Shown here: in pieces, positions 10,482 through 58,986 of the stretch | Layout of the letters: every line of letters begins with the position of its first letter | Position numbering within the stretch: position 1 is the stretch's first letter | Virus record (IMG/VR): IMGVR_UViG_3300021520_000002 | Location: 221,573 to 285,572 of that record | Strand: one strand, 5' to 3' | DNA length: 64,000 nt | DNA from: a virus | Translations under genes and position numbers: made by a program | The notes under the pieces: generated by a model | The model's input: the letters and a program-made list of their open reading frames with translations, nothing else | Databases searched by the model: none | Told to the model about the DNA's origin: nothing

Positions 10482-10556
10482 TGGTGCCCAAGGTGAGAAT
10501 TGAACTCACGACCTAGTGTTTTAGAGGCACTCGCTCTACAACTGAGCTACTTAGGC
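10482..10556 (-). tRNA. tRNA with anticodon CUA (amber suppressor)
   Basis: A complete cloverleaf can be drawn on the minus strand: acceptor GCCTAAG / CTTGGGC (one G-U), D stem GCTC/GAGC, anticodon stem AGTGC/ACACT (four pairs plus a C-A mismatch at 31-39), loop CTCTAAA, five-base variable loop, T stem GTGAG/CTCAC with TTCAATT loop, discriminator A and encoded CCA. T33 fixes the anticodon as CTA, which reads UAG. The D loop has one G fewer than usual (AGTTGTA). The charging amino acid cannot be read reliably: A73 and G1-C72 do not match bacterial glutamine tRNA identity. Confidence 0.88.
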
Positions 10557-15487: not shown

Positions 15488-17476
15488 TTACACTTGACCT
15501 AGCCAAATCTTTTCATAAATTGTTAATATTGGACTATCTATTACTTCTTCCATATCAAGTTCTATTTTCTCAACTGAATTTTTATTTGGTTGATATAAAA
15601 GACCTAATAATGGACTTATATAACTTGCTAATTGTTTATCACCAAGTTTGAATGTTGGAGTTTGACTTTGATTATATCTCCAAAATACTTTATTATCATA
15701 ATCTACTAGGAACATATTTGCAAATAACATTTCAATAAATGAACTGTAAACTGTTCCTACACTTAACATTAAAGTCATAAAATCTTGATAATATTCTTTT
15801 GGTGTTTTTGTTAATTTACTTTGTTGTTTTAACACATTTTTAACTTGATTCATAACAGATATAACATCTTCATTTTTTACTACTTTAGAATCAGCTCTGA
15901 ATGAAAGTTGATTAGTTTTATAATCAATATTCATTAATCCAGGTATATCAGATAAAATTTTATCTGTTAGAATATCTGGAAATTCATTAGTGTCAAAAGT
16001 TAGAATTGTTTGCTCATTAATTCTTTCAACATTAATCAAATGATCTCTAAAAAATTCTAAAACTTCTTTATTTTTTGGTAAATTTGCACCACCTGATACA
16101 TGAAAAGTTCGAAGGATTAATTGTGTTATCCTTTCGACCACACTTTGACCTGCAGTGATACCAACATACTTTGTTGGAAATTCTCTTGCACCAAAACATT
16201 TTCTACAAATTTTAAAATTTGGTTCTTCACAAGTTATTAAAGAACGAATATAGATTTTATTATTTATAAATTTTATAGCTTCTGAAAGAGTTAAAACTTT
16301 CCATTCAAGTTCAGTACTTTGTGGATCTCTATAATATTTTCCAACTAAAGTTTGTGCATGTTTCTGTGAAGTTACAATAATATCTAAATAATTTTCAGTT
16401 CCACAATCATCTGATTCTAGTTCCATGACCGAAAGTCCCATAACTATTGTTCTTTCAAGATACCCAGAATCTGGCGTCCATTTAGCCTTGTCCTGGATAC
16501 TTTTTCTTGTTCCTGGAGCGACTATAAAAAATTCTTCTTCTGTTAAACCTTCTAAAAGAGAGGTTTTAATTGGAATTGGAGTAATATTATTTTCCGCGTC
16601 AGCGCTATATCCGATCGAGATACAAGATCTTGCCAATTGTAATTTAGAAAATCTTGAACCTGATTTAAATAACTTATATAAATTTGATTCTTTATCAAAA
16701 TGTTTTAAACATCTTTCAACAAGAGATTCATTTATATAATAACCTAACATTATATTATCATTAGGTATTTGTTTAAGCAATCTAGTTGTTTCATCATCTT
16801 TAAGATCAACCATTTCTAAAACATCTAAACTTGGTGAATGCTTTGTAACTGATATGAAGAAGAATAGTTTCTTTTCAAGATCAGTTAATCGATCATAATA
16901 TTTTTTATTATCTTTTTCATTTTCAAGAATTAAACGACTAATCTCATTAGAATAATCTTTTTTAACACTTTTATTAATTATTATATTATTAAAACCACAC
17001 CATTTATTGAATAAACACATTCCATATGGTACTAGTTTATTTTTAAATTTAACGGCAGAATATAATTGATCATTCCATAATTCTATAGTTTCTGGAAGAT
17101 CATTAAGATCATCTATTTCTAATATAATTTTGGTTTTATCAAATTCTGTTCTTGTTAATACAAATGCAGCATACAAAGCTTCATATCTCACTGTTGATAA
17201 AAAATTGGAATTTTGATCATAATGAATTGTATTCATCCAAAATGCTTTCTGTTCCAGTTCTTTTAATGCATCAATATCATGAACAATATATATCGCACAT
17301 GTGTCTCCATCAAAATCTGCATTTAAAGCTTCAAGCATAAGCGGACTGATTTGAATTGAATCATTATCTCCATCCTCAATCGCTTCGATTAAAACTCCAA
17401 CACAACTATGACGCCATAATGAAGGTTGTCTATTAATAAATGCTATCCTTTTTAATTTATTTAAAGATTTGTTCAA
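15488..17476 (-). CDS. RNA polymerase beta-prime subunit, C-terminal half
   Basis: 662 residues, TTG start after GGAGGC. FINRQPSLWRHS (13-24) matches RpoC LNRAPTLHR, and NADFDGD (52-58) carries the three catalytic Asp residues that hold the active-site Mg (D54, D56, D58). Later blocks VAPGTRKSIQDKAKWTPDSGYL and GITAGQSVVERITQLILRTFHVSGG match the bridge-helix/trigger-loop region and the RpoC [21 protein letters not shown] segment. CEEPNFKICRKC keeps part of the second zinc site. The split from the N-terminal half falls just before the catalytic domain. Confidence 0.96.
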   Translation of the reverse strand: MNKSLNKLKRIAFINRQPSLWRHSCVGVLIEAIEDGDNDSIQISPLMLEALNADFDGDTCAIYIVHDIDALKELEQKAFWMNTIHYDQNSNFLSTVRYEALYAAFVLTRTEFDKTKIILEIDDLNDLPETIELWNDQLYSAVKFKNKLVPYGMCLFNKWCGFNNIIINKSVKKDYSNEISRLILENEKDNKKYYDRLTDLEKKLFFFISVTKHSPSLDVLEMVDLKDDETTRLLKQIPNDNIMLGYYINESLVERCLKHFDKESNLYKLFKSGSRFSKLQLARSCISIGYSADAENNITPIPIKTSLLEGLTEEEFFIVAPGTRKSIQDKAKWTPDSGYLERTIVMGLSVMELESDDCGTENYLDIIVTSQKHAQTLVGKYYRDPQSTELEWKVLTLSEAIKFINNKIYIRSLITCEEPNFKICRKCFGAREFPTKYVGITAGQSVVERITQLILRTFHVSGGANLPKNKEVLEFFRDHLINVERINEQTILTFDTNEFPDILTDKILSDIPGLMNIDYKTNQLSFRADSKVVKNEDVISVMNQVKNVLKQQSKLTKTPKEYYQDFMTLMLSVGTVYSSFIEMLFANMFLVDYDNKVFWRYNQSQTPTFKLGDKQLASYISPLLGLLYQPNKNSVEKIELDMEEVIDSPILTIYEKIWLGQV

Positions 17477-18316: not shown

Positions 18317-18619
18317 TTACTCCTTAACAACTAACTCTATAATTGTGATTTCTACTTCATAATCTTTTCCATCAATATATGTTAAATCGTGATCATCTTT
18401 TGGAGTTGTACATATTTTTAGAAACTCTTCCATATATTCTTTAGCTTTATCTTCAGATGTGAATATGAATTTACTTTTAATAACTGTCTTCTGTTCAAAA
18501 CAAGCTAATTGTCCACGAATACTGAGTTGATATAATTTAAGATCTTTAATATTATAAGTTGTTGTTTCAGAATATTTAAATAAACTATCAGGTTTTATAT
18601 TTGTTTTCTTCTTACTCAT
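18317..18619 (-). CDS. hypothetical protein between the beta-prime halves
   Basis: 100 residues from MSKKKTNIKPD, the ATG following GAGGAAG; it overlaps the end of the beta-prime N-terminal gene by 8 nt. Mixed alpha/beta with YLKLYQLSIRG-like strands and a C-terminal EVEITIIELVV strand. Function unknown. Confidence 0.65.
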   Translation of the reverse strand: MSKKKTNIKPDSLFKYSETTTYNIKDLKLYQLSIRGQLACFEQKTVIKSKFIFTSEDKAKEYMEEFLKICTTPKDDHDLTYIDGKDYEVEITIIELVVKE

Positions 18620-19802
18620 CTTCTTCCTCAATATTAATTTTTTTCATTCTAACTATTGTTGTTGCTAACAATTTTTCTTGTGGAACATCTTCAGCTGTGA
18701 AGTATTCAACAAATTCATCAAATAATTGTTTATTATCTTTATATTCTTGAGTAACAACAGTATGATATATTTGAAGATAAGTATATTCTGGATGTTTTTC
18801 TTGAATATAATTAGCAAAATAAGGTAACCACAATTTATATAAAATTTCTTTACTTACTTTAATTTTATATGGTGGTAAGCTTGGATTGATTGTAATTACA
18901 GATCTTGCCGAAAACTCAATAGTTTTACCAAGAACAGATGATCTTATAAGACCCCATTTTCCAGATATATTTTCAAATACTTTTTCATATACCTTATCAA
19001 CATAATATTGATATTTAGCGGTCATTCTATCATATTCCTGAATCATTTGTTCTACAATTTCATCATCTAATTGTTCTTTCATACTTTTGTTAATTCTTAA
19101 TAACCAATCTTCTTCTTTATCATCTTTAACACTTCTTGTTGAAGCATTAGATTTATTTAATTGAACTAAACTAATATAAGGTTTATTCACTTCTGTATAT
19201 CTAAAACTTTCAGGTTTATTTGGATCTCTTATTACCGGCCGAACTTCAGGAGGTAATACTTTTATTGTATCCATTATATAACCTTTATCAAATAATTCTT
19301 GAGCTACAGCAATATGCATATAGTCCGCTAAATATTTTAAACAAAGAATAAAACTATATATTCCTGTTATTCTTAATGGTATAATATACCATCCATTTAT
19401 TTTATTAATTGAATCAACAATTTTTAATTTAGTTGTGTCACCAGATAATGCAAGAAATCTTGATGTTGCAGCTGTTGCATCTGCTCTTCTTGGATTTAAT
19501 AAATGTTTATGTGTTCCAACTATTTTCTTAAAATACTTTGTTCTTTTTGTTGGTTTAATAACCGGAAAAATTAAATTTATTTTACCGAAAGTTGATAATC
19601 TTGATTCATTACTAATACACATTACTCCACATTTATCACAAATATTTCCTTGATCAAGAACTTTTACTGATAATTTACCACATTTACATGTAAAATCTTT
19701 TATTGGTCCAAATATACTTTCACTAAAAAGTCCATCTTCATCAAACTTATTCTGTTTGTTAAAGATCTTGGGACTTGTTACTTCGCCTCGGTACTGTCCC
19801 AA
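18612..19802 (-). CDS. RNA polymerase beta-prime subunit, N-terminal half
   Basis: 396 residues with a TTG start 7 nt after GGAGGCG. GEVTSPKIFNKQN...DGLFSESIFGPIKDF (6-37) is the RpoC N-terminal signature; Cys39, Cys41, Cys55 and Cys58 form the first zinc site. LGKTIEFSARSVITINPSLP near residues 285-305 matches the RpoC LGKRVDYSGRSVI segment that contacts DNA. It ends where the catalytic domain (next large gene) begins. Four small genes separate the two halves. Confidence 0.96.
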   Translation of the reverse strand: MGQYRGEVTSPKIFNKQNKFDEDGLFSESIFGPIKDFTCKCGKLSVKVLDQGNICDKCGVMCISNESRLSTFGKINLIFPVIKPTKRTKYFKKIVGTHKHLLNPRRADATAATSRFLALSGDTTKLKIVDSINKINGWYIIPLRITGIYSFILCLKYLADYMHIAVAQELFDKGYIMDTIKVLPPEVRPVIRDPNKPESFRYTEVNKPYISLVQLNKSNASTRSVKDDKEEDWLLRINKSMKEQLDDEIVEQMIQEYDRMTAKYQYYVDKVYEKVFENISGKWGLIRSSVLGKTIEFSARSVITINPSLPPYKIKVSKEILYKLWLPYFANYIQEKHPEYTYLQIYHTVVTQEYKDNKQLFDEFVEYFTAEDVPQEKLLATTIVRMKKINIEEEDE

Positions 19803-28151: not shown

Positions 28152-28177
28152 ATTATTTCTATATGAAATCTTTAAAA
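28152..28177 (-). promoter_or_regulatory. phage promoter
   Basis: Minus-strand TTTAAAGATTTCATATAGAA followed by ATAAT. Drives the gene at 28122, 30 nt downstream. Confidence 0.7.
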
Positions 28178-28193
28178 ATAAAAACAAACAAAA

Positions 28194-28328
28194 TTTTCAT
28201 ATGATACGAATATCACATGAAAATCTTGCCGGTAGAACAATTTCTTAAACCAGCAAGTGGTTCAGAACAGGAACATCTACAGCCTACTGTAGCGTCCTTC
28301 AACTAAAGGTTACCCTTTAATCTATACT
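28194..28328 (-). ncRNA. small RNA E, paralogue of the RNA at 28384-28516
   Basis: About 135 nt between a promoter (28331-28355) and a strong terminator (28194-28223: 13-bp stem with a UUCG loop, then a long U-tract). In order on the minus strand: hairpin AAAGG-GTAA-CCTTT (28305-28318), core GGACGC-UACAG-loop-CUGUA-GAUGUUCC (28270-28297), hairpin GAACC/GGTTT (28247-28263), terminator. No convincing reading frame. The core and order match the neighbouring RNA. Confidence 0.75.
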
Positions 28329-28330
28329 TA

Positions 28331-28355
28331 TTAATTTCTATATGAAAAGCTTGAA
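28331..28355 (-). promoter_or_regulatory. phage promoter of small RNA E
   Basis: Minus-strand TTCAAGCTTTTCATATAGAA followed by ATTAA; starts the RNA ending at 28194. Confidence 0.7.
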
Positions 28356-28383
28356 TATCAAAAAAAGAAAATAAACAAAGAAC

Positions 28384-28516
28384 TTATGTGATATAAATAT
28401 CACATAAATCCTTCGCCAGTCGGAGCAAAACTTTTTTCCCGTGAGGGAATTAGTTAGGAGCATCCAAAGCTTTCTTTGGCGTCCCTTAGATATACATTAC
28501 TGTATATCTTACATTA
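28384..28516 (-). ncRNA. small RNA D, paralogue of the RNA at 28194-28328
   Basis: About 133 nt between a promoter (28519-28544) and a terminator (28384-28407: perfect 10-bp stem TTATGTGATA / TATCACATAA, then U-rich). In order: hairpin GATATAC/GTATATC (28489-28508), core GGACGC-CAAAG-loop-CUUUG-GAUGCUCC (28457-28485), hairpin TTCCC-TCAC-GGGAA (28436-28449), terminator. The core stem differs from RNA E at two base pairs, both compensated (C-G to U-A, A-U to C-G). Confidence 0.78.
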
Positions 28517-28518
28517 AT

Positions 28519-28544
28519 ATAATTTCTATATTAAAATCGCAAAT
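28519..28544 (-). promoter_or_regulatory. phage promoter of small RNA D
   Basis: Minus-strand TTTGCGATTTTAATATAGAA followed by ATTAT. Points away from the methyltransferase gene at 28570. Confidence 0.65.
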
Positions 28545-28569
28545 ATCAAAAAAAGAAAAAAGGAGAAAA

Positions 28570-29073
28570 ATGAACGAGTTTGTACACAACAGTGTTAGAG
28601 ATTTATTTGTCAACAAATATTTAGTATCAAAAAAAGAAGAGAAGTTATTAATTATTGATATTGGAAGTTATGATGTAAATGGTAACATAAGAGATTTATT
28701 TGATGTAAGTAAGAAATGGGGTTATTTTGGAGTAGATATTGAAGCAGGTCCAAATGTTGATATTATTTTAAGAAATCAATATATATTTTATGAATTTGGA
28801 GATTATCAAGTAGATGTAGTTGTATCTTGTTGTACATTTGAACATATTGGTTTGTTTTGGTTAACTATGAAAGAAATAAGTAGAATTTTAAAAGTAGGTG
28901 GATATTGTTGTATTGTAGCTCCATTTGATTGGGAAGAACACAAACATCCAATTGATTGTTATAGATTTTATCCAGATGGATTTAAAGCTTTAGCTGAATG
29001 GTCTGGATTAAAAACTATTGAAACATCTACTATGGCTGATAAACATCATACAATTTTTATCGGCCAAAAATAG
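28570..29073 (+). CDS. class I SAM-dependent methyltransferase
   Basis: 167 residues from MNEFVHNSVRDLF, the ATG after AGGAG. LIIDIGSYDVNG (about 28-39) is the SAM-binding loop, FGVDIEAGPNVD (about 56-67) the acidic loop, and VVVSCCTFEHIG (about 91-102) plus LKVGGYCCIVAPF (about 114-126) the later Rossmann strands of the methyltransferase type 11 group. Substrate unknown. TAG stop, followed in frame by TAA 15 nt later, before the next gene. Confidence 0.85.
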   Translation: MNEFVHNSVRDLFVNKYLVSKKEEKLLIIDIGSYDVNGNIRDLFDVSKKWGYFGVDIEAGPNVDIILRNQYIFYEFGDYQVDVVVSCCTFEHIGLFWLTMKEISRILKVGGYCCIVAPFDWEEHKHPIDCYRFYPDGFKALAEWSGLKTIETSTMADKHHTIFIGQK

Positions 29074-38132: not shown

Positions 38133-38164
38133 ATCGGCAAGATCTATTGCTAAATCTTGCCGAT
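38133..38164 (-). terminator. terminator hairpin, ATCGGCAAGAT family
   Basis: Perfect 11-bp copy (ATCGGCAAGAT / ATCTTGCCGAT) after the gene ending at 38169 and before the promoter at 38093-38115. Confidence 0.85.
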
Positions 38165-42093: not shown

Positions 42094-42125
42094 ATCGGCA
42101 AGATCTATTGCTAAATCTTGCCGAT
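42094..42125 (-). terminator. terminator hairpin, ATCGGCAAGAT family
   Basis: Perfect 11-bp copy after the gene ending at 42132 and before the tandem promoter cluster. Confidence 0.85.
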
Positions 42126-42975: not shown

Positions 42976-45900
42976 ATGGCTGATCAAGTAACTCCGACTC
43001 AAGAACGTTATATTGATCCATATATGCAACGGATTTTCGATTTCGATACCGTTGATGCTAAAGTGTATTTATCTCGTGCAACAAACATGTTGCTTAAGTC
43101 CATTGGTAACAATCTAGTTCTCGATGGATTCGATATAGAAAATCCAACGATTACCTCAAACACAATCATATCAGTTGATGTTAATCCTGGACTAGCTATA
43201 CAAGATTATGTACTTTGTGAAAATTTAGCAGGAACTGGTGTTATACCAAAAGTAACATTGAGTATGGATGTTGCTGGTTTAACTGATACAACTGTTGGAT
43301 TAGCTCATATAGGGGTTTTTCTTGATTATCAATTTTTACATACTGTGAACAGGAATGATTTTGTATTAAGAATGTATCATGTACCAGCATCTGGATTTGG
43401 ATTAACTCCAGCTGGTTTCAGTGCACCAAGAAGTGCTACACTTATTGGTATTATATGTTATACAAAAGATCCTGTAACAGGATATGTAACATATGCATGG
43501 GTTCTTCCAGAATTAGTTGGTGGAGTACCTGATTATGAAAACTGGCCATCTCTATTAGCTGAGACTGTAACTTTTTATCTGAAAGGATGGAAAGAACATT
43601 ATCCTCATATCAATTTTCATGATCTGGTTAAATTTATAGGTGGATATGAAGGTTGGGTAAGTGGTCCAGATTCAGCAATTGATGAAAGTATTGCTGTTTT
43701 TGATGGTACAAGTGGTAAACTAATTAAGATGATTGAACGTAATGTAAGAGTTATTCCAGATTGTTCACTTGGAATCAATGTAGAAGTTCCTTGTGATAAT
43801 GTTCTTGGAACTGATGGTAATATATATCGGTGTAGAGTTTCACACACATCTGTCGATGAAGTTTTACCAACTAGTGAAGTTACAAATCTTGGTCAAGGGT
43901 ATCGTTGTAAATTAGCTCATACTGCAGCAGCTATTAATGAGCCAGGTGTTGGTGCTAATTGGGCAACTTATTGGACAGTAAAAATAAGTGTTGCTGGTCC
44001 AGCTTGGGTTTCTGGAACAGATTATATAATTACTGGAAATCGGCCGATAACTGGAAATTTTATTGATCCTGAAACATTACATGAAGAGTGGACAAAATAC
44101 TGGGATAGAAACTATGATAAATTAACAGCTGATGTTTGGACCGCTGGAAGACCTTATATAACAAATATGGATTCTATTATGGAGATGACTATCGGCAACT
44201 CAGAAGTTCATCTTAAAAAATATTGTGCAAATATAGAACCATATAGTGGTTTCGATACAAATTTTTGGAATGCAGAACGTCAATATCGTCCAGCTATGAT
44301 AACTGGTGATTTAGTAACTATGGGTTTTGATTATTCTTATGGTTATAATTGGATACATTGTGGACCTCCAAATACTATTATTGATAATATCATGGGGTGG
44401 GAACCATATAATGCTCTTATGATTTGGAATCATAAAACACAAGAGGCTTGGGATACATTTCCTGTTCAATATGGTATTGTATGTGAAAATCAAAATTATG
44501 CTACAAATTCATGGGTATTTCCAATAGCAATATCTGGTTGGCAAACTGAAGCTGGTCAGTCTGAAATTGAAGGACAAGATGGAGTTTGTTATCGTTGTAT
44601 TAAAGATCATACTTCAGATCCAACAAATAGGCCATTTAGTGGTGCTACACATAATGGGCCTGGTACAGTTTCAAATTTAGCTAATAGTCCTAATGTTGTT
44701 GGAGTTGGTACTCAATTTCTTTCAGATTTTTATATGAATCATACTATAGTAATTGACGGTGAATATCATTTTATTGCACATGTAACTGATGATACAAATC
44801 TTATCACAGGCATTCCATCTGAACTTGGTGATACATGGTCGACAACACCAATATCATTAGCCCACACCAATGTAGCATATGAAGTGTGTGATTGGAATGA
44901 ATTTTGGGCAAAAGGTGGTGGAGCTGGAATGAATCCTTGGGCTAATGGTAGATTTTATCAGTCCAGAGGAACTTCTAATAGTTTTATAAATATTGCTTTT
45001 CATGGTATATCCATGAGTTATGGTCAATTTGGTATGGGTCAGTTAAGACCCTTTTATGGTGAATGTAGATATATGGGTGGTTCTTATGCAAACACTCATT
45101 ATGGAGATGATACAGGCAACAAACCTCTTGGTTGGGGTTCTATGAGAGTTGCTATGTGTTTTATGGCTGAAAGTAATTTATATGAAGATGGTTGGGAAGG
45201 CAAACCAGGAACTATTCCTGTAACTGAAGGGACAGTTTATGGATTTTATGCTAAAGCATTTGATGGTGGAGCATTTAAATATTCTTTCTGGGGACAAAAT
45301 CAACTTTATATTGGTAAGACTGATACTTCTTATACTGGTCAACTAGCAGCAATATATGCAAAATATGAAAAATCTTGTCGATTAAATGAAACAATAATAG
45401 GTGTTTTTGCAGTAGCAGGAGATATTCCACAAGAGTTAGTAACACCAGCTAATGATTCAAATTTTTCTTGGAATCCAACAGATTGGGTAAATGATACTCT
45501 TGTAGAATGTGTATGTCATCCTGGTACTGAAGAAGTTCCACCACTTCCATGGCAACAAAGTTATCTTCGCTGTGTATCTTCTGCAGCTGGACAATATGGT
45601 CATTTACCAGCGGCAAATTTTCCAGTAGAAGGAATAACATTAGTTACTAATGGTGGATTAACATATAGATGTATAAGACCTTACACATCTACTTTAGATA
45701 CTGAACCTGGAGTTGGAGCAAGTTGGGCATCATATTGGGAGTTATTTCCTGATTGGGATATTGGTATAGATTATGTTTTTGGAGATTTTATAGTTAAAGG
45801 TTCTGTTAATGTATATAAATGTATATTAGCTCACACTTCAGCCGCTATTACGGAACCTGGAGTTGGTGCAAGTTGGTCTGTGTGTTGGAAATATGCTGGA

Positions 45901-48900
45901 GTTACAACAGTATCACCTTGGGTTGAATGGATAAGATATAATACAGGTGGATTTACATATATAACAACATTTTATGTTCAAGCATTAACACTAGGAACAA
46001 GTTGGCAGTTAAGATGTGGTACACAAATAATAGGAATAATAAATTCTACAGGAAGTTATGAAATTACTTGGGATGCAATATCTACAGGTGATTTTTCAAT
46101 TATTTCAAATAACGTTTCAACATTAGATATTTTACAACCATTATCATTAAAAGAAATTAATGAAGTTCCTGGTGCTAGTAGTGCTATAGCATTACAAGCT
46201 GTTGCTACTGATACAATAAATAGTTCACAAACTATATTTGGAGCAGTTTGCATAACAAACTCACATACTGAAAGAGGTATGAGATCAGCTGCTGTGCTTG
46301 GAATGACTACATGGTATGGAAGTAGATATGTTTTAGGAACAGATTCATCCACAGTTTTAGGAACAGATGGGGCAATATATGTATGTAAAATAACTCATAG
46401 ATCAAATGTGGGATATTTGTATGGTGGTTATAGTCACAATCAACCTTCTGCTGGTTTTTGGTGGGAAGATTTTTGGAGAGTTTTTATTAATATTTGGAAT
46501 ACTGGTTGGCATTATACTGTTGATACTTCTGTTATCGAATCTGGTGAAATTTATACATGTATATTAGAACATACTGCAGATTCAACTAGTGAACCAGGTG
46601 TTGGTCTTGATTGGGCATTATATTGGAGTGATGAAGGACCAGTTACCACATTACCGTGGGCAGCAAATACAGATTATGTTGCTAAATCTTATGAATGTAC
46701 AACAAAACACACTTCAACAGATGATGATAGACCAATAACTGGTATAAATTGGGCAACGTATTGGACATTAGATACTAGTGCATTTGCTACTGGTAACGTT
46801 TGGGTTAAAAATAGAAGATATGTAGATATAGGTCCAACAGTAATAACTGGACAACAAAGTATAGTTGACGTTCAACAAGAAGATGCATCACCAAGTGCTA
46901 ATACTGGGGATGATTGTACTGTAACTAGTTATTATGCAAATGCTATACCTGGTGGAAGAAGAGTATTTTCTTATTATGGTGGTGATCCCATATATATAGA
47001 TAGAGAAACAGCAGCTAACAGAGAAATTGATGCTGCGATTTTTGCCGATTATACATATCCAACAAGAGAAGCAATAGTTCAGTGTGGTGCTGTAACACAA
47101 TCCATAGATATTGGTGGTTCTCCGAATTATAATTCATATGGACATATTATTGGTACACTTGGATTAGTAACAAATACGTTTAACGGCAAATTATCTTTAT
47201 ATGGTCTTGAAGGAAGATGTGATGGTAAAGGATTAAATGTTAGCGCTTGGAATATTGGTGTATTTGGTATGGCTAATTGGACTAATCCAATTTATGATGA
47301 TAGTTTTGATGAAAATTATTATAAAGTTTTTACAACAGCTGATGTAGATGTAGTAGCTGATACAATAACTTTTATAGATGGACATGGGAAAGTAGATGGT
47401 GATATTGTTGAATTTACTGTTGAAGCTGGAACTTTACCTTTAGGTTTATCAATAGATTCAATTTATACAGTTTTAAATAGTACACCAACAACATTACAAG
47501 TTGGTTATGGTTCAACAGTTCTTCCACTTGTAAGTGTTGGTACAACTGGTCCTTTTAGAATGTATCTGGGAAGATCTGCACCAATGTTAACATATGGAGT
47601 TCAAAGTAGAACATATATGATTAATGATGATGGATCAGAATATTCAACTAACTTTAATAATAATTTTGCGATAAATACATGTTTTGCAGCTATGAAAGCT
47701 GTAGGTGGTTGGATGCAATATACTTTATCCGGTTATGATCCAATTATGTTAACATCTGGAGATTATGTTATAGGTACAGATTCAGATTATGTTTTAACTG
47801 GTGGTACTATTTATAGATGTAAGATAAATCATAAAGCTGGAGGAATGTTTGGTGATCAGGAAGCTCCTGGTCAAATGTTTGGATTTTTATATTGGAGTCC
47901 AGTGACAGATGCTTCTGGTCCAGTGACTGCTCCTGCTTGGTTAAAAGGTAAAGATTATAAAGCAAATTATTATAAATGTACAACAACACATACTTCATCA
48001 TATGATGATCGACCAGTAAATGGTGTAGATTGGGCAGGATATTGGACGAAAGAATATATTTATACACCCATGGGTGAAGATCATATTTGGTATGAAGGAA
48101 AAAGTTATAGAGGACAAGTAACAATGGCATATACTGGATTCCATGTGGATCAAGTTGGTGGTGGTGCCTTAGTTGTTAATGGAGTAACACCCGGTTCAGT
48201 AAATACTGGATGGGTGGAAGTTCGAGTTGATAGTGGTATCGGTTGGATACCTTATTGGTCAACAGGAGCTGTAGCAACAAGTGGAACTTCTGGAACAGGT
48301 GGAACATCAGGTACAAGTACAAGTGGTACTTCAGGTACAAGTACAAGTGGAAGTTCTGGAACAAGTACATCTGGTTCATCTGGAACAAGTACAAGTGGTA
48401 CTTCTGGAAGTAGTAGTGATATAGATTTAACTGAAGGTAATTGGTATCTTGGAACTGGTTGGAGTATAGGTAGTTTAATAAAAGTTTCAGCAACAAGTTC
48501 TGGAATGGCTTGGTCTAATGATCATGTTCCGACTATTGGAGAAACTTATACAGCCACAGTAGTGTGTGATTCATATGATGCTGGAGGTGGTCTTGGAATT
48601 TATTGGAACTATGGTGGGATATGTGGATCAAATGGTATAGCACTTCATGCTGGAACAAATACACGTACTGGAGTGGCAACATCAGGAAACACAGCTTTCT
48701 TCTTCCCACTTAATGATGCGTGTACAGCTACAATTTCACGTATTAATATAACAACAGGAACGAGTGGAAGTAGTGGAACATCTGGAACAAGTACATCTGG
48801 TTCATCTGGAACAAGTACAAGTGGAACATCTGGAACAAGTACAAGTGGAACTTCTGGAAGTAGTAGTAATGTATCTTTAGATGTAAGTAATTGGTTAACT

Positions 48901-49677
48901 GCTATTGGTTGGACTGCAGATGGTACTTATTTAACAAAAGCATCAGCAACTGGGTCTGAAATGACTTGGGCTAATGATCATATTGCAACTCCTGGACAAA
49001 CTTATACAGTAGAGGTTGTATGTGATTCATATAGTGCTGGAGGTGGTCTTGGAATTTATTGGAACTATGCAGGATTATGTGGTTCAAATGGTACACCACT
49101 TCATACTGGAACAAATACAGTTACTGGAGTGGCAACAGGAACAGTGTCACCACTTTTCTTCCCACTTAATGATGCGTGTACAGCTGTAATTTCACGTATC
49201 ACTATAACAGTTGGAACATCAGGCACAAGTGGAAGTAGTGGAACATCTGGAACAAGTACGAGTGGAACATCTGGAACAAGTACAAGTGGAACATCTGGAA
49301 CAAGTACAAGTGGAACTTCTGGTGCAGATTCAGTATCACTTGAAGCATCAAATTGGTTAGCTGGTGTTGGATGGACATATGGTACTACATTATCAAAAAC
49401 TGCAGGTGTTGAAGGTGATTTAATTTATGCTAATGATCATATAGCAAGTGCAGGATCTTCATATACAGTTACAGTTATTGCTGATTCATACACTACTGGT
49501 GAAAGTTTAGGTATTTATTGGAATCTTGGTGGATTATGTGGTGTGAATGGTAAACCACTTGTTGCTGGAACAAATTCAGCAACTGGAACAGCATCAACAA
49601 ATGGATCAGTATTATTTTTTCCATTCGGTACAGGATGCGCATGTGTAATTAGTTCAATTACAGTACATCAAAATTAA
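42976..49677 (+). CDS. giant tail-fibre protein (2233 residues)
   Basis: Start after AGGAGGAAAA. The first 250 residues (MADQVTPTQERYIDPYMQRIFD...) are shared with the fibre at 50569. The body holds about ten copies of a carbohydrate-binding-like module (Y-x-C-x3-H-[TS]...EPGVG..W...YW; for example near residues 309, 897, 948, 1193, 1239 and 1665). Residues about 1767-1813 are GTSG linkers, followed by three tandem repeats of a 110-115-residue C-terminal domain (about 1815-1926, 1965-2078, 2118-2233) separated by GTSG linkers. Each repeat carries DSY..G..LGIYWN..G.CG.NG. Together this suggests a multi-domain receptor-binding fibre. Confidence 0.9.
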   Translation: MADQVTPTQERYIDPYMQRIFDFDTVDAKVYLSRATNMLLKSIGNNLVLDGFDIENPTITSNTIISVDVNPGLAIQDYVLCENLAGTGVIPKVTLSMDVAGLTDTTVGLAHIGVFLDYQFLHTVNRNDFVLRMYHVPASGFGLTPAGFSAPRSATLIGIICYTKDPVTGYVTYAWVLPELVGGVPDYENWPSLLAETVTFYLKGWKEHYPHINFHDLVKFIGGYEGWVSGPDSAIDESIAVFDGTSGKLIKMIERNVRVIPDCSLGINVEVPCDNVLGTDGNIYRCRVSHTSVDEVLPTSEVTNLGQGYRCKLAHTAAAINEPGVGANWATYWTVKISVAGPAWVSGTDYIITGNRPITGNFIDPETLHEEWTKYWDRNYDKLTADVWTAGRPYITNMDSIMEMTIGNSEVHLKKYCANIEPYSGFDTNFWNAERQYRPAMITGDLVTMGFDYSYGYNWIHCGPPNTIIDNIMGWEPYNALMIWNHKTQEAWDTFPVQYGIVCENQNYATNSWVFPIAISGWQTEAGQSEIEGQDGVCYRCIKDHTSDPTNRPFSGATHNGPGTVSNLANSPNVVGVGTQFLSDFYMNHTIVIDGEYHFIAHVTDDTNLITGIPSELGDTWSTTPISLAHTNVAYEVCDWNEFWAKGGGAGMNPWANGRFYQSRGTSNSFINIAFHGISMSYGQFGMGQLRPFYGECRYMGGSYANTHYGDDTGNKPLGWGSMRVAMCFMAESNLYEDGWEGKPGTIPVTEGTVYGFYAKAFDGGAFKYSFWGQNQLYIGKTDTSYTGQLAAIYAKYEKSCRLNETIIGVFAVAGDIPQELVTPANDSNFSWNPTDWVNDTLVECVCHPGTEEVPPLPWQQSYLRCVSSAAGQYGHLPAANFPVEGITLVTNGGLTYRCIRPYTSTLDTEPGVGASWASYWELFPDWDIGIDYVFGDFIVKGSVNVYKCILAHTSAAITEPGVGASWSVCWKYAGVTTVSPWVEWIRYNTGGFTYITTFYVQALTLGTSWQLRCGTQIIGIINSTGSYEITWDAISTGDFSIISNNVSTLDILQPLSLKEINEVPGASSAIALQAVATDTINSSQTIFGAVCITNSHTERGMRSAAVLGMTTWYGSRYVLGTDSSTVLGTDGAIYVCKITHRSNVGYLYGGYSHNQPSAGFWWEDFWRVFINIWNTGWHYTVDTSVIESGEIYTCILEHTADSTSEPGVGLDWALYWSDEGPVTTLPWAANTDYVAKSYECTTKHTSTDDDRPITGINWATYWTLDTSAFATGNVWVKNRRYVDIGPTVITGQQSIVDVQQEDASPSANTGDDCTVTSYYANAIPGGRRVFSYYGGDPIYIDRETAANREIDAAIFADYTYPTREAIVQCGAVTQSIDIGGSPNYNSYGHIIGTLGLVTNTFNGKLSLYGLEGRCDGKGLNVSAWNIGVFGMANWTNPIYDDSFDENYYKVFTTADVDVVADTITFIDGHGKVDGDIVEFTVEAGTLPLGLSIDSIYTVLNSTPTTLQVGYGSTVLPLVSVGTTGPFRMYLGRSAPMLTYGVQSRTYMINDDGSEYSTNFNNNFAINTCFAAMKAVGGWMQYTLSGYDPIMLTSGDYVIGTDSDYVLTGGTIYRCKINHKAGGMFGDQEAPGQMFGFLYWSPVTDASGPVTAPAWLKGKDYKANYYKCTTTHTSSYDDRPVNGVDWAGYWTKEYIYTPMGEDHIWYEGKSYRGQVTMAYTGFHVDQVGGGALVVNGVTPGSVNTGWVEVRVDSGIGWIPYWSTGAVATSGTSGTGGTSGTSTSGTSGTSTSGSSGTSTSGSSGTSTSGTSGSSSDIDLTEGNWYLGTGWSIGSLIKVSATSSGMAWSNDHVPTIGETYTATVVCDSYDAGGGLGIYWNYGGICGSNGIALHAGTNTRTGVATSGNTAFFFPLNDACTATISRINITTGTSGSSGTSGTSTSGSSGTSTSGTSGTSTSGTSGSSSNVSLDVSNWLTAIGWTADGTYLTKASATGSEMTWANDHIATPGQTYTVEVVCDSYSAGGGLGIYWNYAGLCGSNGTPLHTGTNTVTGVATGTVSPLFFPLNDACTAVISRITITVGTSGTSGSSGTSGTSTSGTSGTSTSGTSGTSTSGTSGADSVSLEASNWLAGVGWTYGTTLSKTAGVEGDLIYANDHIASAGSSYTVTVIADSYTTGESLGIYWNLGGLCGVNGKPLVAGTNSATGTASTNGSVLFFPFGTGCACVISSITVHQN

Positions 49678-49687
49678 AAAATAGAAT

Positions 49688-49719
49688 ATCGGCAAGATCT
49701 ATTTCTAGATCTTGCCGAT
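49688..49719 (+). terminator. terminator hairpin, ATCGGCAAGAT family
   Basis: Perfect 14-bp stem (ATCGGCAAGATCTA / TAGATCTTGCCGAT) with loop TTTC, directly after the fibre stop; T-rich downstream. Confidence 0.9.
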
Positions 49720-49754
49720 TATTTTAAAAGAAAATGAAAAGAGAGGAAATATAA

Positions 49755-50540
49755 ATGAATGTAACAATAGAAAATATTTACTTAATCAAAACAACATTAT
49801 CAAGAATTATAACTATGTTAGAAAATGAAAGAAATTTATCTATTAGAGATTCACACGCATTAGTTAGAGATCTTAAAATTATTGAATCAGAATTTGGAAT
49901 GATTGAAGAGACTAAAAACAAGATAATCAACAAATATTCAATTTCACAAGGTAGTACTGAACCTAATATACCTCTAGAAAATATGAGAGAATATCAAAGA
50001 GAATTCAAAGAGTTATTAAGTACTGTTATGGATCTTAATTTAATGACTTTTGATATTGCTGTTTTTAAATATGCTAAATTTTTATCACCATTAGATATAA
50101 AAAGTCTAAGTCCTTTAATTAATAATTTTAAAAATAGTCTAGTCCCATCTAAACCCATAAAGGTTGTGTTTGGACAGATAAGAGAATCAAAAGTATTCTT
50201 TGAAAAAATTGTTTTTGGAAATTTTGATTTCATATCTTCTATGAAGTTTTTTCAGATAATAGAAGAAACAGATAGATATCAAAACTCAATTGAACAACAT
50301 AGATTAAATTTAATTGATTCAATTTTAAGAGGACTTCCAGAATTAACTGAAGAAACTCCTAAAGATGTTAAAGATAAAATTTTAGAAAAGAGAAATGAAT
50401 TTAATATGAAATTTACAGACTATTTATTACAAGAAATTGAAATTAATATTCCATCATTTTCTCTTGAAGAGTTTGAAAGATTAAATATAAAAGTTTCACC
50501 ATTAGAATATTATAATCTGGATTATATGATGGAGAATTAA
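49755..50540 (+). CDS. alpha-helical helper protein following a fibre gene
   Basis: 261 residues after GAGAGGAAAT. It seems to contain two copies of one helical unit: 'I..TL..I......R.........K.II..Y.I......EP.IP.EN...Y..EFKELLS..M.L....F..A.....FLSP.DI..L'. The genes at 55061 and 58178 have the same layout and also follow fibre genes. The pattern recalls the DUF1617-like helical proteins of siphophage tail modules. A fibre-assembly chaperone is a reasonable guess, not a demonstrated role. Confidence 0.7.
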   Translation: MNVTIENIYLIKTTLSRIITMLENERNLSIRDSHALVRDLKIIESEFGMIEETKNKIINKYSISQGSTEPNIPLENMREYQREFKELLSTVMDLNLMTFDIAVFKYAKFLSPLDIKSLSPLINNFKNSLVPSKPIKVVFGQIRESKVFFEKIVFGNFDFISSMKFFQIIEETDRYQNSIEQHRLNLIDSILRGLPELTEETPKDVKDKILEKRNEFNMKFTDYLLQEIEINIPSFSLEEFERLNIKVSPLEYYNLDYMMEN

Positions 50541-50568
50541 ATATTTAAAGAATTAAATGGAGGAAGGT

Positions 50569-53500
50569 ATGGCAGATCAAGCAACTCCAATTCAAGAACG
50601 ATATATTGATCCTTATATGCAAAGAATTTTTGATTATGACACTACAGATTCGAGAGTATTTATATCACGGGTAACAAATCTATTACTTAAATCTGTTGGG
50701 AATAATATTGTTTTATTCGGACTCGAGCCAATAAATTTAAGACCCACTATTTCAGATCCACCATCATCAATCATATCTGTAGATATCACTTCAGGATTAG
50801 CTATACAAGATTATGTACTTTGTGATAATTTATCTGGAGTTGGGATTGAACCTAATATAACTTTAACTATGGATGTTGCAGGATTAGATGATACAACTGT
50901 TGGTGGTGCATATCTTGGAATTTGGATAAATTATCAATTTTTAGAATCAATGGAATCTAATCCTTTTATTTTAAAAATGTATCATGTAAATTCTGATGGT
51001 TCTGGGGTGAATCCAGCTGGATTTGATCCATTAAAAAATTGTACATTAGTTGCAATTTTAGGTTTTACAAAAATAGGTGGTGTTGTTACTGACGTGTGGA
51101 GTTTACCAGCAGTAGTTGATTATCAACATTGGCCTACTTTATTAGTTGGTTCAACAACTTATTATTTAAGAGGTTGGGAAAATTCAAATCTTAATACTAA
51201 TGAAATTATAAGATATGTATGTGGTGAAGAAGGATATGTTAAAGGTCCAGATATAGTAGTTGATGGAAGTATAGCTTTATTCGATGGAACAACAGGTCAA
51301 ATTATTAAAGACAGTGGGTTAACTCCAGTTTTTGGAGATGTATATGGACCAACAGGTTCTACAACAGGACATATTGCTATATTTGATGATAACACTGGTA
51401 AATTATTAGCTGATGGTGGATTAGTACCAGATGGAGATGTGATCGGTCCTAGTTCATCTGTTACTGGAAATTTAGCTATTTTTGGAGATACATCAGGAAA
51501 GTTAATTTCAGATGGTGGTTCAATACCAACTGGAGATGTAGTTGGTCCAATGGGATCAGTTGCAGGACACTTGGCAGTATTTGATGATGTAACAGGTAAA
51601 GTAATTTCAGATGGTGGACCAGTTCCAGTTAGTGTTGGAGATGTGGTTGGACCAGTAGGTGGAGCAGATGATAGTCATTTAGTTTTATTTGATGGATTAA
51701 CTGGAAAATTGATTAAAGATGGTGGTCCAGTTCCATCTGGTTTAGGAGATGTTATTGGTCCTACAGGTTGTACTCCAGGAAATTTAGCTGTATTTAATGA
51801 TGCGACTGGTAAGATATTAGCTGATGGTGGATCATTACCTATTTTTGGTGATGTTGTTGGTCCTGCATCATCTAGTGATGGTAATTTAGTTTTATTTGAT
51901 GGAATATCTGGTAAATTAGTTAAAGATGGTGGTGCAATGCCAATTGGAGATGTAGTTGGACCAGCGGCAGCAACCCCAGGAAATTTAGCTGTATTTAGTG
52001 ATATAACTGGTAAAGTATTAGTTGATGGTGGAGCATTACCAGTTAGTCTTGGAGATGTGGTTGGACCTGGTGTGGCTATTAGTGATCATATTGTTTTATT
52101 TAGTGGAACAACTGGTAAACTAATAAAAGATGGTGGAGCACTACCAGCTGGTTTAGGAGATGTAGTTGGACCAGCAACTGCTATATCAGGACATTTAGCT
52201 GTATTTAGTGGAACAACTGGTAAATTAATAGTTGATGGTGGGGCTGTACCATCTGGTTTAACTAGACTTATACCAGATCAATCTGCTGGTGTTCTTCCTG
52301 CAAGTACTGTTCGAGGAACTGATGGACTTTATTATCGTTGTAGGGTCGCACATTCAGCTCTTGCCGCTAATCGGCCGATAACTGGTGCTGCATTAGATAC
52401 AATAACTCTTAAACCTGAATGGAAAAAGTATTGGGATGTTGATTCATCTCTTACAACAGCTCCAACTTGGGTTTCTGGAACATATTATGTAACAAATATG
52501 GATTCAATTTTTGATTTAACTACTGGAAATACTTTTATTCATTTAAAGAAATATGGTGCAACTATTGATCCATATAATACTTTCTGTTCAACATTTTATG
52601 ATGGTTCAGATGATATACATACTAAGTTAGTTGTTGGTGATATAAATATTCTGGGAACTAATAGAAGTTATAATTATACATTTATTCATCTTGGTCCACA
52701 TTCAAATAAAGATAATGTTGAAGATGTTTATAAAGGTGACACAGGATTAATGGTTTGGAATCATCCTGATCCAACAAAATTAGAAGATTGGTTTCGTTGG
52801 TATCAGAGTGGTATAATAGTTGAAAATCAAAATTATACAACAGTACAATATCACCAAAATTTTGGTTTACAAGCTTGGTCTACAGAAGCTGGTCAGTCTG
52901 AAGTTAAAGGAACTGATAATAATGAAACTGGTTATAGATGTATTTTAACACATGTTGCTGCAACAAATAATAGACCAACTACTGGTACATATTGGGCAAC
53001 ATATTGGGAAGTTGGTGGTGGGTGTGGTCAAAATCAGTGGGTTTCAGGAACAACATATCAAGCTAAAGGAACTGCTCGTGGAGATTCTTATGGTGTTTAT
53101 GGTATGGCCGCTGGTTATGGTACAGAAGGAAATTATACAGGTGTATTAGGTGATTCTTGGTATCTTGGTGGTTCATATGCATATCCAAAAGGTGTATATA
53201 CTGCTCCTGAAGTAAATGGTTGGAATGCTAATAGAATGGCCATAGGTGTTGCTGGTAGAACTAGAATTTATCAAGATGGTTGGGAAGCTCATGATGGAAC
53301 AGTTCCAGTAACTACAGGTTCTATGTATGCATTTTACGCTCACGCCGCTATTGGTGGACAATATAAATATTCTTTTTATGGTAAAGATCAACTTTATATA
53401 GAAAAAACTTATGAAGCGGTTTATCCACAGAATTCAGCAATATATAGTGTTTATCAATCAAACTTTTCAGCTTCATCAGAAAATTCAAGTATATCAGGAT

Positions 53501-54879
53501 TTATATCAAATAATCCTTCTGAAGTGTTTGTTAATGATGGTGATAGGTATGGTAATGTTGGTGGAACTTTTACATGGATAAGACGTACATTATCTGTTTT
53601 TGCACAGACAGGTTCATATCCAACTAGTTATATTAATGCAGCGGCAAGCGCGTCTAATCAATATGCTGAACTTCCAGTATTAAGCGCTCCAATGCAAACT
53701 GGACATACTTATAAAATATTAGTTGATGTTGCTAGTATAGTATCAACATGGACTATAAGATCTTTTGATGGTACACAAACTATTGGAACAATATCAGCAA
53801 ATGGAAGTTTTCGATTTGATTGGACATGTTTAAGTACAAATTCAGTTATTGGTTTAGATATAATGAGAGAAGGAAAAGGAGAATATGGGGCTGGAGGTAC
53901 ATTATCTGCTAGTGGAGGTGGAGGTTCTGGTTTTACTGGAACTTATACTGTGTCTGGTGGTAATATTTCATCTGTCACAATAACAAATTCTGGATCTGGT
54001 TATACTTCTATACCAACTATTGTATTATCTGGTGGTGGTAGTGCAGTAATAACTGCTAGAGTTTCACCAGGTGGATTTCGTATAGTATCTGGTTCAAGTT
54101 CATCTCGAGCTCAATTTTCTAATTTTTCTAGTAAAGAAGTTGTTACAGCAGTATCAACATCAGTAATGTCTGGTGTTAAAGGTTCTGTTACAGATGGTGT
54201 TGATAATTCACATCATATGGTTGGAGTAAAAGGTAGTTGTATTTCTATAGCTGAAAATTATCCATCTTTACAATTACAAGGTGTTTATGGTAATACTCAG
54301 TGGAGTGGATCAACAACAGTTTTAGGAAGTGATGGTATTACTGTTTATAGATGTAAATTATCTCATGTATCAGCAACAATTAATAGACCATATTCTGGAG
54401 CAAATTGGGCAACATATTGGGAAACAGAAACTACTCCAGGAACAGGTGCTGTTGCATGGGTATTAGGTAGAAGATATGTTGTTTATGGTCCTGCTTTAGT
54501 TACAGGTATTCAAGCATCTACAAAAGTTTATCAAGTTGATGGAGCAACAGCTAATAGTTCTTATCGTAGCTGTAATATTGCAGCTGCATTTTATGCTGAA
54601 CCATGTATTGGTGGATCGGCAAAATATTCACTTGTTGGTTATGATCCTATAAAAATATATGATTATGAAGGTTATCCAGCTGGAACACAATCGGTATCAA
54701 TAACTGGTAAACGTGTAGCTCCTGCAGCAGCTGTGGTAGGGAGTGTAGTAGGTACTGGACCTGGTCAAAATGCTGGATGGATTAAAGCTGTTATTACACC
54801 AGGAGATGGACCAGCACCAGGTGTTGCCGTTAATGGGTGGATACCATATTGGACAACTGTTTCTCCCACTGGACCTTAA
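50569..54879 (+). CDS. tail-fibre protein with tandem DVVGP repeats (1436 residues)
   Basis: Start at MADQATPIQERYID, the ATG after GGAGGAAGG. The N-terminus is a close copy of the fibre at 42976. Residues about 254-564 hold about eleven repeats of a 30-residue unit (GDVVGP....GNLAVFD..TGK.I.DGG), a known trimeric-fibre repeat. Carbohydrate-binding-like modules lie near residues 588, 788 and 1259. Residues about 1119-1164 (SGSGYTSIPTIVLSGGG) match a small beta-repeat common in phage fibres. Likely a second receptor-binding fibre. Confidence 0.9.
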   Translation: MADQATPIQERYIDPYMQRIFDYDTTDSRVFISRVTNLLLKSVGNNIVLFGLEPINLRPTISDPPSSIISVDITSGLAIQDYVLCDNLSGVGIEPNITLTMDVAGLDDTTVGGAYLGIWINYQFLESMESNPFILKMYHVNSDGSGVNPAGFDPLKNCTLVAILGFTKIGGVVTDVWSLPAVVDYQHWPTLLVGSTTYYLRGWENSNLNTNEIIRYVCGEEGYVKGPDIVVDGSIALFDGTTGQIIKDSGLTPVFGDVYGPTGSTTGHIAIFDDNTGKLLADGGLVPDGDVIGPSSSVTGNLAIFGDTSGKLISDGGSIPTGDVVGPMGSVAGHLAVFDDVTGKVISDGGPVPVSVGDVVGPVGGADDSHLVLFDGLTGKLIKDGGPVPSGLGDVIGPTGCTPGNLAVFNDATGKILADGGSLPIFGDVVGPASSSDGNLVLFDGISGKLVKDGGAMPIGDVVGPAAATPGNLAVFSDITGKVLVDGGALPVSLGDVVGPGVAISDHIVLFSGTTGKLIKDGGALPAGLGDVVGPATAISGHLAVFSGTTGKLIVDGGAVPSGLTRLIPDQSAGVLPASTVRGTDGLYYRCRVAHSALAANRPITGAALDTITLKPEWKKYWDVDSSLTTAPTWVSGTYYVTNMDSIFDLTTGNTFIHLKKYGATIDPYNTFCSTFYDGSDDIHTKLVVGDINILGTNRSYNYTFIHLGPHSNKDNVEDVYKGDTGLMVWNHPDPTKLEDWFRWYQSGIIVENQNYTTVQYHQNFGLQAWSTEAGQSEVKGTDNNETGYRCILTHVAATNNRPTTGTYWATYWEVGGGCGQNQWVSGTTYQAKGTARGDSYGVYGMAAGYGTEGNYTGVLGDSWYLGGSYAYPKGVYTAPEVNGWNANRMAIGVAGRTRIYQDGWEAHDGTVPVTTGSMYAFYAHAAIGGQYKYSFYGKDQLYIEKTYEAVYPQNSAIYSVYQSNFSASSENSSISGFISNNPSEVFVNDGDRYGNVGGTFTWIRRTLSVFAQTGSYPTSYINAAASASNQYAELPVLSAPMQTGHTYKILVDVASIVSTWTIRSFDGTQTIGTISANGSFRFDWTCLSTNSVIGLDIMREGKGEYGAGGTLSASGGGGSGFTGTYTVSGGNISSVTITNSGSGYTSIPTIVLSGGGSAVITARVSPGGFRIVSGSSSSRAQFSNFSSKEVVTAVSTSVMSGVKGSVTDGVDNSHHMVGVKGSCISIAENYPSLQLQGVYGNTQWSGSTTVLGSDGITVYRCKLSHVSATINRPYSGANWATYWETETTPGTGAVAWVLGRRYVVYGPALVTGIQASTKVYQVDGATANSSYRSCNIAAAFYAEPCIGGSAKYSLVGYDPIKIYDYEGYPAGTQSVSITGKRVAPAAAVVGSVVGTGPGQNAGWIKAVITPGDGPAPGVAVNGWIPYWTTVSPTGP

Positions 54880-54897
54880 TTGAAAGGAGAAAGTATT

Positions 54898-55038
54898 ATG
54901 GCCGATGAAAAAATTAAACAAGAAAATCCTTCTGATTTAATAAAAAAACATAAAGAATTAGAAGATAGATTAAAAGCTGGATTAAAGAAAAATGATCAAT
55001 TTATTGTTGATTATAAAAAACAAGTAAAAAAGTTGTAA
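54898..55038 (+). CDS. small basic helical protein
   Basis: 46 residues (MADEKIKQENPSDLIKKHKE...), ATG after GGAG, TAA stop. All helical and charged. Sits between the fibre and its helper gene; possibly an assembly factor. Function unknown. Confidence 0.66.
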   Translation: MADEKIKQENPSDLIKKHKELEDRLKAGLKKNDQFIVDYKKQVKKL

Positions 55039-55060
55039 ATAGAAAAGGAGAAACAGACAA

Positions 55061-55537
55061 ATGGCTACAATTAAAATCTTTGAATTAGAACAAGCAAAAA
55101 ATAGTGTAGAGACTCTTAAGACTTATAAATTAAATACAACACAATGGTATTGGTTGGGTAGAATTTCTCAATTTCTCAACAATGAAATCACCGCTTTTGA
55201 CGAAGCAAATATGGAATTATATAAAAAATATGGACAATATATTGAAGTTGAATCTTATTTATTTACTACACAAAATCTTAATATATTTATTGATCATATT
55301 AGGAGTGATGTGAACAAGATAAATGAGTTAGAAAAGTATGCAAAGAAACATATTGGAAATAATATTTATATAACTCCAGAGAATATGAAAGATTTTAATA
55401 AAGAACAGAAACAATTATTTGAACAAGACATTCAAATACCAATTAAACCTTTAAAAATATCTATTCTTGAAGGAATAGAGGGTCTTACAGGTGTCTCAAG
55501 TTCACTGATGGTGTTTTTTGAAGAGCCATCCGATTAA
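55061..55537 (+). CDS. alpha-helical helper protein following a fibre gene
   Basis: 158 residues after AGGAGAAAC. Single copy of the helical unit described for the gene at 49755: YKLNTTQWYWLGRISQFLNN...YITPENMKDFNKEQKQLFEQDIQIPIKPLKI. Ends just before a terminator hairpin. Probable fibre-assembly partner, by position and shape only. Confidence 0.7.
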   Translation: MATIKIFELEQAKNSVETLKTYKLNTTQWYWLGRISQFLNNEITAFDEANMELYKKYGQYIEVESYLFTTQNLNIFIDHIRSDVNKINELEKYAKKHIGNNIYITPENMKDFNKEQKQLFEQDIQIPIKPLKISILEGIEGLTGVSSSLMVFFEEPSD

Positions 55538-55551
55538 TTAAATATATTTTA

Positions 55552-55579
55552 TTGGAGGAGAATTAAACCTCTCCTCCAA
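55552..55579 (+). terminator. terminator hairpin with embedded ribosome-site sequence
   Basis: Perfect 10-bp stem TTGGAGGAGA / TCTCCTCCAA with an 8-nt loop, then CTATTTTT. The stem contains GGAGG on one arm, so besides ending the operon it cannot help initiate translation of the next gene, whose own ribosome site lies downstream of it. Confidence 0.8.
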
Positions 55580-55602
55580 CTATTTTTAAATGGAGGAAAT
55601 TT

Positions 55603-58107: not shown

Positions 58108-58116
58108 AAACATTTT

Positions 58117-58150
58117 ATCGGCAAGATCTTGTAATATAGATCTTGCCGAT
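58117..58150 (+). terminator. terminator hairpin, ATCGGCAAGAT family
   Basis: Stem ATCGGCAAGATCT / AGATCTTGCCGAT with an 8-nt loop, directly after the S74 fibre gene and before the helper gene at 58178. Confidence 0.88.
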
Positions 58151-58177
58151 AATTTTAAAAGAAGAGAGGAAATATAA

Positions 58178-58942: not shown

Positions 58943-58986
58943 AAAGAAGTTTGTTTTAAATTTAATTAGAGGGAGGTCCTTCAACT

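Follow-up and report, generated by a model that had tools for sequence, protein, structure and literature searches.

This locus raises two questions: whether a pair of short tandem intervals without a plausible reading frame constitutes genes for structured RNAs, and if so, what these RNAs could do for the virus that carries them. The intervals, here called units A and B, lie in a window of 64,000 nt that comprises bases 221573-285572 of the 285,572-base IMG/VR record IMGVR_UViG_3300021520_000002, a jumbo phage with a G+C content of 29%. The window encodes a split multisubunit RNA polymerase (beta-like, 585-2555; beta'-like, 15488-17476 and 18612-19802). The best matches of beta' among the GenBank phages reach around 23-31% identity, so the phage is only distantly related to these. 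On the minus strand the order is promoter A, unit A, promoter B, unit B, another promoter and the gene for a 70-aa protein, and a methyltransferase gene runs in the opposite direction from about 28571. An earlier note had proposed two tandem minus-strand units with a fixed order of elements, and both their places and this order were borne out by the motif scan and the folds (Table 1). A plus-strand ORF that overlaps unit A (28441-29073) was discarded as a GTG-start extension, as the methyltransferase more plausibly starts at the ATG at 28571, after AGGAG. Elsewhere in the window there is a tRNA with a CUA anticodon (10482-10556, minus strand; tRNA-Pyl according to ARAGORN), a possible amber suppressor. 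The general recoding of UAG that it suggested is unsupported, since UAG terminates 21 of the 174 long ORFs. In the region 42976-62600, several tail-fibre-like proteins of very large size contain long stretches of SGTSGSSG repeats, and the opposite strand consequently shows long spurious proline/leucine-rich ORFs.

Table 1. Elements of units A and B, their surroundings and the other non-coding units. Positions refer to the window; those outside it are preceded by an L label.
Feature	Position	Strand	Basis
Promoter A, core TATAGAAAT, extended element TTTTGATATTTGCGATTTTAATATAGAAATTATA	28522..28530	-	promoter-word scan; consensus of 41 sites
Unit A, predicted transcript	28366..28512	-	fold; start G28512 deduced from spacing
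A hairpin 1, 9 bp, GUAA loop	28488..28509	-	fold; 5 double changes vs B
A core hairpin 2, GGACGC / GAUGCUCC, 12 bp, bulged A and C	28456..28485	-	motif scan, fold
A hairpin 3, AACU..UUCCC-UCAC-GGGAA..AGUU	28429..28455	-	fold, pair count
A terminator, 20-bp stem then UUAUUUUCUUUUUUU	28374..28417	-	fold
Promoter B, core TTTCATATAGAAATTAATA	28334..28342	-	promoter-word scan
Unit B, predicted transcript, start deduced near 28327	28180..28327	-	fold
B hairpin 1, 9 bp, GUAA loop	28301..28322	-	fold
B core hairpin 2, GGACGC / GAUGUUCC, 12 bp, bulged A and U	28269..28298	-	motif scan, fold
B hairpin 3, UUCU-GAACCA-CUUGC-UGGUUU-AAGAA	28242..28267	-	fold, pair count
B terminator, 20-bp stem then U-tract	28187..28230	-	fold
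Separate promoter of the 70-aa gene	28155..28163	-	promoter-word scan
Next gene, 70 aa	27910-28122	-	downstream of unit B
Further units in the window	42065, 41968, 34440	-	promoter-downstream scan
Further units outside the window	L018 13035, 12941; L019 17893; L020 9850, 10029, 11096, 12424, 18706, 19071	-	promoter-downstream scan

Folded separately, the two units adopt the same four hairpins (z -6.4 for A and -6.8 for B), and none of 200 dinucleotide shuffles was as good. Hairpin 1 lies close to the predicted 5' end, at a distance of 3-5 nt, and is followed in both units, after a gap of 2 nt, by core hairpin 2 with its two bulges on the 3' side; the distance between the end of the GUAA loop and GGACGC is exactly 12 nt in A and in B. 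The window, where 0.00 copies of the pattern GGACGC-N14-GATGYTCC are expected, contains exactly two, both on the minus strand (28457-28484 and 28270-28297), and these are the only two in the 285-kb genome. The longest in-frame ORFs within the units have 31 and 29 codons and none is plausible. Judged by sequence, A and B thus each possess their own promoter and their own intrinsic terminator and lack an ORF, as expected for independent small-RNA genes. An alternative hairpin 3b (UUGC-loop-GCGA) was rejected, because the full-length fold, which places these bases in the 20-bp stem of the terminator, is the more consistent of the two.

Each unit starts at a lineage-specific promoter, TTTCATATAGAAATWATA. 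In the window there are 27 occurrences of the promoter word TATAGAAAT, where 3.5 would be expected, and the consensus TTTNATATTCAANNTTTCATATAGAAATAAT was derived from 41 context-filtered sites in the whole genome, of which 39 are on the minus strand, the strand of A and B. The repeated promoter, the 20-bp terminators and the shortness of the ORFs agree with the earlier reading that the units run from a phage-type promoter to a hairpin plus U-tract without a reading frame. Around 65 sites of the same type were recovered, with the same T-rich upstream element, in a distant relative (G007, see below), which indicates that this promoter has long been part of the lineage. Since the 70-aa gene has a promoter of its own, A and B do not form the leader of that gene. 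In RNAP-encoding jumbo phages an AT-rich motif near -10 is highly conserved among the early genes and is read by the virion polymerase (PMC7598289, PMC5312081), and the early promoter of AR9 is AAATATATATTAT-6N-G (PMC5312081). By analogy, the promoter of A and B is probably of the early class, and on this basis we infer early expression of both units; the start of unit A was placed according to the AR9/phiKZ-type early promoter spacing, 6 nt after the element (PMC5312081). The mRNA leaders under promoters of the A/B type often open with a strong hairpin as well (z below -3; e.g. G000 168027, 177749, 206695 and 263397, minus strand), which suggests that such hairpins are generic 5' stabilisers. 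Given how common they are in the mRNA leaders of this phage, hairpin 1 of A and B may have the same role.

The relation between the two units was established in several ways. A covariance model built from A alone recovered B over positions 1-126 of 126 in a search of 286 kb, with 64.3 bits and an E-value of 1.5e-11, which is to be taken as rough, like all E-values of the search tool; the one other match listed was a reverse-strand shadow (E 0.12). In plain sequence, three different parts of A were each compared with 7,556 genome windows, and B ranked first every time, by modest margins. These two tests are independent of the earlier pairing and uphold the paralogy and the conserved structure that had been claimed. 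Over the 49 pairs shared by the full-length folds there were 16 double changes, 6 single changes and 0 broken pairs, whereas a neutral simulation with the same number of unconstrained substitutions gave on average 4.1 double changes and 21.7 broken pairs and reached the observed combination in 0 of 20,000 runs. Because the helices for this count were selected on the basis of the two folds, the count is biased towards paired cells; the search with the A-only model is free of that bias. The double changes include 5 in hairpin 1, around the conserved GUAA loop, 5 in hairpin 3 and 4 in the terminator. In an alignment of hairpins 1 and 2, all 21 pairs are kept in both units, 7 of them by double changes, a result that was reached by 3 of 500 shuffles, and when the alignment was slid by 1-3 columns only 33-41% remained paired, with no double change. 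Similarly, the alignment to the A model contains 43 pairs with 11 double changes (0 of 500 shuffles), and sliding reduced the pairing to 36-50%.

The pattern of compensation was, one detail apart, as the earlier note had described it, but the note's count was too low. The two compensated pairs in the core stem (C-G to U-A and A-U to C-G) are correct. The change of an outer pair from G-C to G-U is not, as the minimum-energy fold shows G-U to A-U instead, and the C/U difference that had been read as this change lies in a bulge and needs a different register to pair with G. The excess of double over broken pairs indicates selection on the fold after the duplication. Together with the match of the A-only model, it makes us highly confident, at the level of sequence comparison, that A and B are real paralogous structured RNA genes.

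The suggestion that no described RNA family has this layout held for Rfam 15 and for the GenBank phages. At the gathering threshold, the 4,227 families of Rfam 15 gave only tRNA in the window and the genome and no match to A or B, and with E-values up to 10 the A/B region gave only sub-threshold chance matches. A blastn search of this region against the GenBank phages yielded no convincing match. In IMG/VR, the exact pattern of promoter plus core had 0 matches, GUAA plus core had 37, none with both stems, and core plus U occurred in at least 119 stretches, none convincing among the matches listed. Among the GTDB genomes, GUAA plus core matched 13 times, with no match that scored. Searches with single proteins encoded near the units did not find close relatives. 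By other routes, four related records were obtained: G001 (IMGVR_UViG_3300000216_000003, beta' 35% identical) by beta' alignment, G005 (IMGVR_UViG_3300009502_001749; 88 proteins with a mean identity of 68%, which span roughly the 21-106 kb interval of the genome) and G004 (IMGVR_UViG_3300022664_000125; 41 proteins, mean 52%) through the dispersed hairpin motif described below, and G007 (IMGVR_UViG_3300044712_000810, 314,837 bases; 109 proteins, median 42%) via the promoter. Neither model R1 nor the A-only model R2 found a homologue of A or B in these four or in the others searched. As G004 and G005 are fragmentary and correspond to regions of the genome elsewhere, close relatives of the A/B region appear unsampled. 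The earlier note had named two outcomes that would together speak against its reading, namely a covariance search without homologues and neutral controls with similar paired changes. The first applies outside this genome, whereas the controls proved dissimilar. Relatives without a homologue are also what one would expect if A and B were decayed or spacer transcription units without function, yet, as far as the fold is concerned, the compensatory and broken pairs counted above already contradict relic status, and we regard it as extremely improbable.

Starting from what was computed, i.e. the two units, their paralogy, the conserved fold and the repeated promoter, we infer expression, early timing, a protein target and action in trans as follows. 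A and B would be tandem genes for stand-alone structured small RNAs of around 140 nt; the polymerase of the phage itself would transcribe each of them from a probably early promoter, and an intrinsic terminator of its own would end each transcript. Protection of the two RNA ends would fall to hairpin 1, with its GNRA-type loop near the 5' end, and to the long stem of the terminator, and core hairpin 2 would be the functional element. The RNAs may then act in trans as abundant early ligands, either decoys or adaptors, of one host or phage protein. Taken as a whole, stand-alone RNA genes that act as early protein ligands in trans are our best explanation, at a little short of an even chance; the protein-ligand mechanism as such we put forward tentatively, as a possibility of somewhat less than even weight.

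This preference derives from the distribution of the conserved letters. In the core hairpin, the lower stem and the two 3' bulges are nearly invariant, in so far as a single divergence between two members of one genome can define invariance, while the upper stem drifts under compensation; such a combination points to a protein-binding site (or an RNA tertiary contact) rather than to an antisense seed. The invariant letters lie mainly in the paired lower part of this hairpin, and the loops and linkers are not conserved between A and B. Base pairing is, however, the mode of action of most trans-acting bacterial sRNAs, and A and B could pair with host (or phage) mRNAs via their hairpin-3 loops or linkers, with the fold as a mere stable scaffold; the fact that these parts differ is as expected for RNAs with separate targets. 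Against this, a scan of 395 translation-start regions of the phage showed no complementarity to A or B above that of shuffled controls, and the strongest conservation is found in the base-paired core and not in an exposed seed. The unconserved loops and linkers and the outcome of the scan speak against a common role of A and B as antisense regulators of phage mRNAs, and antisense action in general seems unlikely to us, albeit worth serious consideration. An early, trans-acting, protein-binding RNA is favoured by the same two observations, the conserved letters in the paired core and the lack of complementarity to phage starts.

The position of the hairpins also brings to mind an action in cis. 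The put RNAs of phage HK022 are two paralogous two-hairpin elements of conserved structure, located just downstream of early phage promoters, that act in cis on the host polymerase and suppress downstream termination. Hairpins 1 and 2 of A and B might likewise modify the transcribing polymerase and allow it to read through terminators into downstream genes, as they are adjacent (2-nt spacer), directly follow a promoter of putatively early class and occur in two copies with compensatory changes, like putL and putR. In contrast to put, however, each A/B unit is closed by a strong 20-bp terminator of its own, after which a fresh promoter follows. The next gene has its own promoter too, so that read-through would bring no obvious gain, and the polymerase concerned is probably phage-encoded. 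Such a role is very improbable, and action in trans as a protein ligand remains the preferred reading.

Downstream of all promoters, a scan revealed around 14 apparently non-coding promoter-to-terminator units in the phage genome, A and B included, of around 70-350 nt and in several cases strongly folded. Strong folds occur in several of the around 12 further units (e.g. 351 nt at -105 kcal/mol and 210 nt at -77), and the longer units cluster at genome positions 189.5-199.1 kb. None of the further units matched Rfam, and they showed no convincing similarity to A/B or to one another. The minus-strand unit at genome position 153035 (L018 13035), around 70 nt long, has an unpaired 5' part, UCUCCUCC, that is complementary to Shine-Dalgarno sequences and precedes a terminator hairpin; it is a candidate translation-interfering RNA. 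G007 has units of its own under the same promoter, three strongly folded ones in tandem (301357, 301582 and 301755; L289 1357, 1582 and 1755) and a C-rich one (265035; L287 5035), and no convincing sequence similarity was detected between the two sets. Given the around 14 units here and the unrelated set in G007, A and B belong to a wider RNA repertoire, one that seems quick to turn over.

Fast turnover of RNA units between relatives would fit an arms race, and with it the view that A and B are anti-defence decoys, which would mimic a CRISPR repeat (as Racr does), a tRNA arm, an antitoxin RNA or some other host RNA and titrate away a defence protein in the early phase of infection. The Racrs are structured RNAs directly downstream of viral promoters (PMC10651486), and the promoter of A and B is of early type. 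The upper stems, on the other hand, differ by compensated changes, so that the pair copies no single fixed repeat sequence, and Rfam gave no match; the decoy view is in our opinion rather unlikely. Extending the preferred reading to the lineage, one may speculate that it maintains a battery of structured RNA genes (around 14 here and at least 4 in the relative), each with a promoter and a terminator of its own and transcribed by the viral polymerase. Their turnover would be so fast that a relative with around 42% protein identity shares none of them, and A and B would be the first members of a new family of early phage RNAs that target proteins, possibly with an anti-defence role. We consider this broader picture doubtful at present.

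The 5' side of the terminator of B holds most of one copy of a dispersed motif, CGGCAAGAT, which merits a description of its own. The 9-mer ATCGGCAAG/CTTGCCGAT, which resembles a DNA-uptake sequence, occurs 80 times against 0.31 expected under a second-order Markov model, a genome-wide over-representation of around 260-fold, and TATCGGCAA occurs 109 times in the genome against 0.63 expected under the same kind of model. Out of 76 CGGCAAGAT sites, 42 form 21 intergenic inverted pairs that look like terminator hairpins (e.g. window positions 42096-42123 and 38135-38162), and 34 are single, 26 of them within ORFs; the copy in unit B (28223-28231) is single. ATCGGCAAR is found at 33 sites in G005 and 11 in G004 (control 0 in both) and is absent in G001. 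The dispersed 9-mer is perhaps more unusual than the RNA pair.

How do A and B compare with the structured RNAs that are already described? The large ornate RNAs GOLLD, ROOL and OLE (PMC12286853) are structured ncRNAs as well, some of them phage-carried, but A and B are small and match no Rfam family. In type III toxin-antitoxin systems, the tandem-repeat RNA ToxI is followed by a gene for a ToxN-type endoRNase, whereas the proteins of 70 and 71 aa encoded downstream of the units belong to no family above the cut-off. The Racr RNAs are, like A and B, small structured phage RNAs that directly follow a promoter, a likeness of placement and structure; they are defined by similarity to a CRISPR repeat (PMC10651486). 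The two core stems of A and B differ in sequence from each other. In phiKZ, Grad-seq disclosed two ncRNAs that are UTR-derived mRNA fragments with two stem-loops (PMC8545117). They share with A and B the structured nature, a length of around 100-180 nt, terminator-like hairpin ends and an origin in a jumbo phage with multisubunit RNA polymerases. A and B differ from them in being bounded by promoters and terminators of their own, in having four hairpins each and in forming a paralogous pair. By their sequences, A and B are thus a real and new orphan pair among the phage-encoded small structured RNAs, with no proven membership of the phiKZ, Racr or put kinds. Phage-encoded structured RNAs are known but few, and for jumbo phages with their own RNA polymerases we found UTR-derived examples alone in the literature. 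It is rare for a fold that has no outside homologue to gain comparative support as it does here, from two strongly covarying paralogues of a single genome. The pair points, moreover, to a larger set of non-coding genes under one promoter, and raises the question whether jumbo phages direct a dedicated RNA programme against their hosts.
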